This document shows positions 4,714-28,699 of a stretch of 64,000 bases of DNA, in pieces. Origin of the DNA: Candidatus Kapaibacterium thiocyanatum (lineage in GTDB: Bacteria > Bacteroidota > Ignavibacteria > Kapaibacteriales > Kapaibacteriaceae); contig MKVH01000002.1 in the NCBI GenBank assembly GCA_001899175.1, forward strand, positions 186,001 to 250,000, in the 5' to 3' direction. Below the pieces are notes generated by a model, which was given only the letters and a program-made list of their open reading frames with translations, did no database searches and was not told the DNA's origin. Made by a program: the position numbers and the translations under genes. Positions within the stretch are counted from its first letter, which is position 1, and every line of letters begins with the position of its first letter.

Positions 4714-4754
4714 TATCCCGTTCGGTCGACACCGAATCGAGAATGACAACATGA

Positions 4755-4788
4755 ATGCGGATCGCCCATCGTGGCGATCCGCATTTTT
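4755..4788 (+). terminator. Intrinsic terminator after rplY
   Basis: A perfect 12-bp stem, ATGCGGATCGCC (4755-4766) with GGCGATCCGCAT (4773-4784), 6-base loop CATCGT, followed by a run of five T (4784-4788). It closes the tRNA-Gln-prs-rplY unit. Confidence 0.9.
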
Positions 4789-28019: not shown

Positions 28020-28069
28020 GTAGTGGCGTTCGCGCGTGACGGTGGTGGAATCCACTTCCATGGTGAAAA

Positions 28070-28098
28070 AACGATTTATCGATAAACGATAAATCGTT
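28070..28098. promoter_or_regulatory. Perfect palindromic operator of the DUF2975-XRE operon
   Basis: AACGATTTATCG (28070-28081) and CGATAAATCGTT (28087-28098) are perfect 12-base arms around a 5-base spacer ATAAA. It lies between the two boxes of the operon promoter. The probable ligand is the XRE-family regulator encoded second in the operon, which would be autorepression; this is inference. Confidence 0.7.
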
Positions 28099-28105
28099 AT
28101 GTTTG
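28075..28105 (+). promoter_or_regulatory. Promoter of the DUF2975-XRE operon
   Basis: TTTA at 28075-28078, 19 bases, then TATGTTTG (28098-28105), a perfect TAnnTTTG. The palindromic operator covers the spacer and the start of the -7 box. Transcription would start near 28110, leaving a leader of about 38 bases. Confidence 0.65.
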
Positions 28106-28147
28106 GTACATGACGTTTCACCACTGCATTCTGCACGAGGTACCAGC

Positions 28148-28699
28148 ATGACGACCGATACAGTATCACCGAACAATGCGACACGTACGACACGCATCCT
28201 GGCGACGATGCGCGTAATTGCATGGATCGTCTTCATCAGTCTGATGGTCGAAACCGGGTTGTTTCTCGTGACCTATGTGATTAGCTGCTACAGTCCGGAT
28301 ATCGTATCGAAGATGTATCGTGGAATGGAGTTGTATGACCTGATGGCATTCGACTTCCGGCACTATTCGGCTACAGCCATCATGCGGATCACATACACGG
28401 TCTTGAAGACGTGGGCCGCATATCTCACCGTTTCTGTGCTGGACGACGTGAAGCTGGCCCACCCTTTCACACTCTCCATCGCGCGGTTGCTGGAGCGGAT
28501 CAGCATCACGTTGCTGATAGCCGGTGGTGTAGCCATAGTGAACAATGCCCACGACCGATGGTTGACGGAGAACCTGGGAATTCACTCGTGGGAAATGTCG
28601 ATCGAAGGCTTCCTGGTGACGGCCGGCCTGGTCTACGTCATCGCGAAGATCTTCCGGCGTGGCGTGGAGCTCCAATCCGAACACGATCTCACGATATGA
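28148..28699 (+). CDS. DUF2975 membrane protein
   Basis: A 183-residue membrane protein with four hydrophobic segments, roughly residues 19-40, 75-95, 115-135 and 150-170. It matches the DUF2975 pattern in size and layout: a first transmembrane segment, an extracytoplasmic stretch of ~25 residues, and three further segments. The pairing with a small XRE regulator immediately downstream is typical of this family, including the Bacillus YozG-type pairs. ATG 28148 places the start after the promoter. The role is unknown; it may act as a membrane partner of the regulator. Confidence 0.75.
   Translation: MTTDTVSPNNATRTTRILATMRVIAWIVFISLMVETGLFLVTYVISCYSPDIVSKMYRGMELYDLMAFDFRHYSATAIMRITYTVLKTWAAYLTVSVLDDVKLAHPFTLSIARLLERISITLLIAGGVAIVNNAHDRWLTENLGIHSWEMSIEGFLVTAGLVYVIAKIFRRGVELQSEHDLTI

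Follow-up and report, generated by a model that had tools for sequence, protein, structure and literature searches.

Two adjacent genes of the window, which is the whole 64-kb stretch of DNA analyzed here, encode a DUF2975 membrane protein and a small XRE regulator, and a perfect palindrome lies just upstream of the pair (Table 1). The DUF2975 assignment comes from a profile search (PF11188, 35.1 bits against a cut-off of 27), and all of the aligned orthologues (61/61) fit the same profile at E <= 0.01. The protein was modeled as four long helices (pLDDT 92.5). A fold search with this model returned no solved structure with E < 0.5, so there is no known mechanism to borrow. The XRE gene starts 3 nt past the DUF2975 stop codon. 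Its product scores 84.9 bits against the HTH_26 profile PF13443 (cut-off 22), and because the domain spans residues 6-67 of 72, the regulator is without a sensor domain. The XRE model, of modest confidence (pLDDT 69.8), resembles the DNA-binding XRE proteins CylR2, SinR and P22 c2 in a fold search. XRE is far better conserved than its partner, being 64-80% identical among relatives, whereas the 61 DUF2975 orthologues are only 12-42% identical to the protein of the window. As for the neighboring genes, the BNR-repeat gene upstream had no match in five relatives searched, and a 45% homologue of the downstream glycosyltransferase is found in a genome of the same genus (G001), in another context.

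Table 1. Positions of the genes and proposed regulatory features in the window, with the basis for each
Feature	Position	Strand	Basis
Perfect 12+5+12 palindrome, proposed XRE operator	28070-28098	.	Arm comparison; conserved core in orthologues
Candidate -33 element TTTA, part of the left arm, 19 nt ahead of the -7 box	28075-28078	+	Sequence
Left conserved half-site TTATCG (consensus TTATTG)	28076-28081	.	Orthologue alignment
Right conserved half-site CGATAA (consensus CAATAA)	28087-28092	.	Orthologue alignment
Candidate -7 box TATGTTTG, fits TAnnTTTG	28098-28105	+	Consensus match
Gene for the 183-aa DUF2975 membrane protein (four long helices in the model, conserved tail at the C-terminus)	28148-28699	+	PF11188 profile
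DUF2975 C-terminal 15 residues, candidate XRE docking tail	28652-28696	+	Orthologue conservation
XRE regulator gene, HTH_26, 72 aa	28703-28921	+	PF13443 profile

The palindrome reads AACGATTTATCG-ATAAA-CGATAAATCGTT, with two 12-nt arms (28070-28081 and 28087-28098) that are 100% complementary and 5 nt apart, which confirms the description given in the initial annotation. First-order simulations lead one to expect about 0.05 repeats per 64 kb with perfect 12-nt arms and a loop of up to 12 nt; the window has four such placements, and the remaining ones are GC-rich, unlike the one at 28070-28098. A chance origin of the palindrome was considered and rejected. No second copy was found in the 64-kb window, even with three mismatches (expected 0.00), and no further copy in the 3.27-Mb genome with three mismatches across the 20 inner arm bases. 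Another perfect inverted repeat of the window, at 4754-4785, has 13-nt arms and a 6-nt loop.

In Flavobacterium, the sigma-A -7 box of housekeeping promoters has the consensus TAnnTTTG (PMC9723704), which was applied here to the window. The candidate -7 box that fits it lies 42 nt upstream of DUF2975, and base 28098 is both the last base of the palindrome and the first of the box. The palindrome had been thought to touch the -7 box and to fill the spacer between TTTA and that box; the contact holds, but TTTA lies within the palindrome rather than in front of it. A sigma-70 promoter scan of the region returned nothing, which would be no surprise in an organism with TAnnTTTG-type promoters, and we describe 28070-28105 as a putative promoter from the consensus match and from conservation, with a start site predicted near 28110.

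The conservation of the site was examined in operons with the same gene pair. Scanning the contigs of related genomes with the DUF2975 protein recovered no relatives, and the loci were instead recovered by XRE alignment. Among 99 related genomes, counting that of the window, eight have a close XRE relative, and a DUF2975-like gene precedes XRE in six of the remaining seven. From the window and the upstream regions of these six relatives, a core was derived by eye that reads TTATYG-N5-CRATAA, or nearly so, and stands just before a TAnnTTTG-like box. It was then tried on loci gathered later, 80 of them from named genomes (nearly all Bacteroidota, with a few Bacillota) and others from the phylum. 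The core was found within 150 nt upstream in 82 of 112 DUF2975-XRE operons, the first seven included, compared with none of 560 dinucleotide-preserving shuffles, although the operon counts are not fully independent because several loci share genera. Operons of Geobacillus (L061) and Exiguobacterium (L084) are among those of Bacillota that have it. A slightly relaxed core was found in the 1.1 kb upstream of XRE at 96 of 113 loci and downstream of XRE at none of 110. With one mismatch allowed, between -800 and -500 from XRE, the site is present in 99 of 112 operons and in 2 of 110 downstream controls. Most orthologous operons thus share a conserved inverted repeat at the putative core promoter. 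The initial annotation had named beforehand, as the result that would speak against an operator, the absence of the palindrome from orthologous operons; of about 110 such operons, most retain it with its sequence conserved. A scan of the upstream regions that presupposed no motif gave a matching result, with 8-bp inverted repeats of spacer 5 the most enriched (48 perfect cases against 1.8 in shuffles), and with spacers 7, 9 and 11 next because longer palindromes have a common centre. There is no recognizable site in 13 of the 112 operons. Some of these have mis-called starts, and some may use other operators.

The aligned sites have the consensus TTTATTG-TTTWT-CAATAAA, followed most commonly by 8 nt after the core and then by TAnnTTTG. 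The TAnnTTTG box was found in 62 operons; it follows the core after 7-9 nt in 57 of them and after 5 nt, the spacing of the window, in three. In the orthologues, the TTG of the left half-site typically lies 19 nt before the -7 box, which is the expected -33 position, and operator and promoter therefore interlock. The window copy departs from this pattern: a C-G pair replaces the T-A pair in both half-sites (TTATCG/CGATAA), the repeat extends into a long perfect palindrome, the -33 element (TTTA) is weak, and the gap of 5 nt, compared with the usual 8, makes for an atypical promoter geometry.

A perfect palindrome upstream of a gene could also be an intrinsic terminator or RNA hairpin, serving the upstream BNR-repeat gene or acting on the minus strand. 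This is consistent with the strong hairpin predicted for either strand (z -3.6 and -4.4), with a terminator scan that flagged the + strand, and with six T after the hairpin on the minus strand. However, the stem is AT-rich with no clean U-run on the + strand, and the palindrome precedes the conserved -7 box rather than following it. Moreover, the orthologous sites keep their sequence and not merely their pairing, with half-site columns that are 90-100% one base, although conservation is built in at the positions by which the sites were selected. Two positions outside the selected pattern, -1 (T, 90%) and +17 (A, 88%), indicate that conservation extends past the search pattern. The flanking pairs have no covariation above chance except for the first pair, and this lack of covariation beyond the first pair favors a site recognized as DNA over an RNA hairpin. 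Sequence-level conservation in front of a -7 box led us to reject the terminator reading as very improbable. On the minus strand at 28064-28098, the TTTTTT after the hairpin could be a weak terminator for antisense transcription.

Evidence as to which protein binds the site comes from its distribution and from its variation with XRE. Of 21 genomes scanned for the exact typical operator, TTATTGTTTWTCAATAA, 10 have it; each holds a single copy, which always lies at the module, 0.5-1 kb upstream of an XRE gene among the loci gathered from the phylum. In the window's genome, the core has one exact place (expectation 0.2), and its four one-mismatch places are at chance level. The initial annotation had looked to further genomic copies to define a regulon; the regulon search over the window's genome found no other exact site, so no wider regulon was seen and the operator appears to be private to the DUF2975-XRE operon. 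The operator also varies with the type of regulator. In a divergent XRE subtype, QSKELAE replaces SLNELSE, and all five loci of this QSKELAE subtype (L005, L007, L009, L111 and L124) have AATTATTG...CARTAATT or CGATAATT. The change is symmetric, the flanking pair nearest the core being A/T instead of T/A on either side, and was found in 5/5 of the QSKELAE subtype versus 2/97 of the others (Fisher p 2.5e-7, with kinship ignored and the five loci coming from three families). At three of these loci (L005, L007 and L009, from one related family, with a QSKELAE-type XRE), the module adjoins a gene for an ABC transporter ATPase, with a permease-like gene as well in two.

A palindrome by itself names no binder, and the site could belong to another, global regulator that happens to control the operon. 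With one site per genome, always at the module, and an operator that covaries with XRE subtype, we consider this extremely improbable and rejected it. Three observations, namely one operator per genome at the module, the sole exact fit in the window's genome and the covariation with XRE subtype, point to the XRE of the operon itself as the probable binder.

Conservation points to a protein-binding site and cannot, alone, separate repression from activation, so the choice between them turns on the position of the site. XRE could bind the palindrome and activate its own promoter, or do both depending on concentration, like the controller proteins of restriction-modification systems. C.BclI and C.AhdI, of the same fold family, are among the structural matches of XRE, and the weak -33 element of the window is also consistent with activation. 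Controller proteins of this kind typically have a tandem pair of palindromes. The operon described here has a single palindrome and no tandem pair, and the site overlies the -33 region and runs up against the -7 box instead of standing upstream of it; activation is therefore unlikely. Bound here, an XRE dimer would occupy the -33 region and reach the -7 box, which makes steric repression the simplest reading.

Taken together, orthologue conservation, position, covariation with XRE subtype and the single exact genomic site support the proposal of the initial annotation that the palindrome is an XRE autoregulatory operator. We consider it highly probable that it serves a self-contained two-gene module, in which an XRE dimer represses its own promoter and DUF2975 is the likely input. 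The dimer would bind with one subunit per TTATYG half-site, across the 5-bp spacer, covering the -33 region, touching the -7 box and excluding RNA polymerase. The resulting negative feedback would keep expression of DUF2975 and XRE low, and the module would repress little else.

Since XRE is without a sensor domain, relief of repression would most likely come from DUF2975, possibly by way of its conserved C-terminal tail. Among the 61 orthologues, conservation is highest in the final 15 residues of the protein (F-[KR]-[KR]-G-x-E-x-Q-x-E-N-[DE]-L-T-[VI]), with a mean information of 3.2-3.9 bits compared with 1.4-2.7 in the rest. A conserved tail beside a still more conserved small regulator suggests a docking site, while conservation so near the stop codon could partly serve XRE translation instead. 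As a more speculative extension, DUF2975 and XRE might form a minimal transmembrane signaling pair that needs no phosphorelay. DUF2975 would sense a membrane or envelope condition and, through docking at the tail, draw XRE away from the one operator that is private to the module, in a circuit that mainly sets the level of one membrane protein; we put this forward tentatively, for Bacteroidota and some Bacillota, as a possibility that may well prove wrong. DUF2975 is a widespread membrane family, and a private switch with a conserved tail makes it a small testable circuit of one site, one repressor and one membrane protein. The operator consensus is also a quick means to annotate DUF2975-XRE operons in many genomes, and since about 100 other bacterial genomes have the site in front of this gene pair, the neglected module of membrane protein and regulator is readily testable.

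The gene pair has been known since 2009 as YoaS-like/Xre. We take yoaS-yozG of Bacillus subtilis to be such a pair and YoaS to be a DUF2975 protein, as a DUF2975 match in that species in a control search suggests. Makarova et al. counted 32 cases of a YoaS-like membrane protein paired with Xre (PMC2701414), a conserved membrane-protein/Xre pair that is very probably the same module as DUF2975-XRE; we found no operator or mechanism described for it there. The operator sequence was found in none of the openly accessible papers searched.

A toxin-antitoxin reading would keep the operator as proposed and differ only on DUF2975, which would be a membrane toxin with XRE as both antitoxin and autorepressor. 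The two-gene operon with its toxin-first order, the autorepressor site and the patchy distribution of XRE among relatives (8/99) are all consistent with this. On the other hand, conservation is much stronger in XRE than in its partner, which is a predicted membrane protein (four-helix model), and Makarova et al. set YoaS-like/Xre aside as not toxin-antitoxin, since membrane components were not known from any type II system (PMC2701414). A DUF2975 gene without an adjacent XRE in one genome (G005, locus L010) argues against obligatory toxicity, and overall a toxin-antitoxin function seems unlikely. That gene is a second, more canonical DUF2975 copy; frames of an IS3-type transposase follow it, and an XRE may have been displaced there.

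Among solved structures, the best sequence match to XRE is VanUg (3tyr; E 1.2e-6, with 33% identity in the fold match). An identification of XRE as VanU was nevertheless rejected, since it scores 31.3 bits against NCBIfam NF000090, for which the equivalog cut-off is 150. A four-helix membrane protein whose gene is paired with that of a small, sensorless XRE protein recalls the layout of CylR1/CylR2 of Enterococcus faecalis, likewise a two-gene unit with a membrane protein of several helices and a small XRE protein (PMC3709268). The CylR2 repressor sits on the promoter, and the signal is thought to pass through the membrane protein CylR1 (PMC3709268). The XRE model matches CylR2 (1utx, 2xiu) with a TM-score of 0.75 on the query, although the two proteins are only about 20% identical. 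The likeness of DUF2975 to CylR1 is one of layout, CylR1 having three predicted helices versus four modeled in DUF2975, and CylR2 controls a divergent biosynthetic operon, whereas the site in the window appears to serve only the module's own promoter. A second parallel is with the Aca autorepressors of anti-CRISPR operons. These have other partner genes and operators and are tied to phages and mobile elements, but they too are small HTH proteins encoded second in the operon, with an inverted repeat in the core promoter, and their repression has been demonstrated by reporters (PMC9410906).
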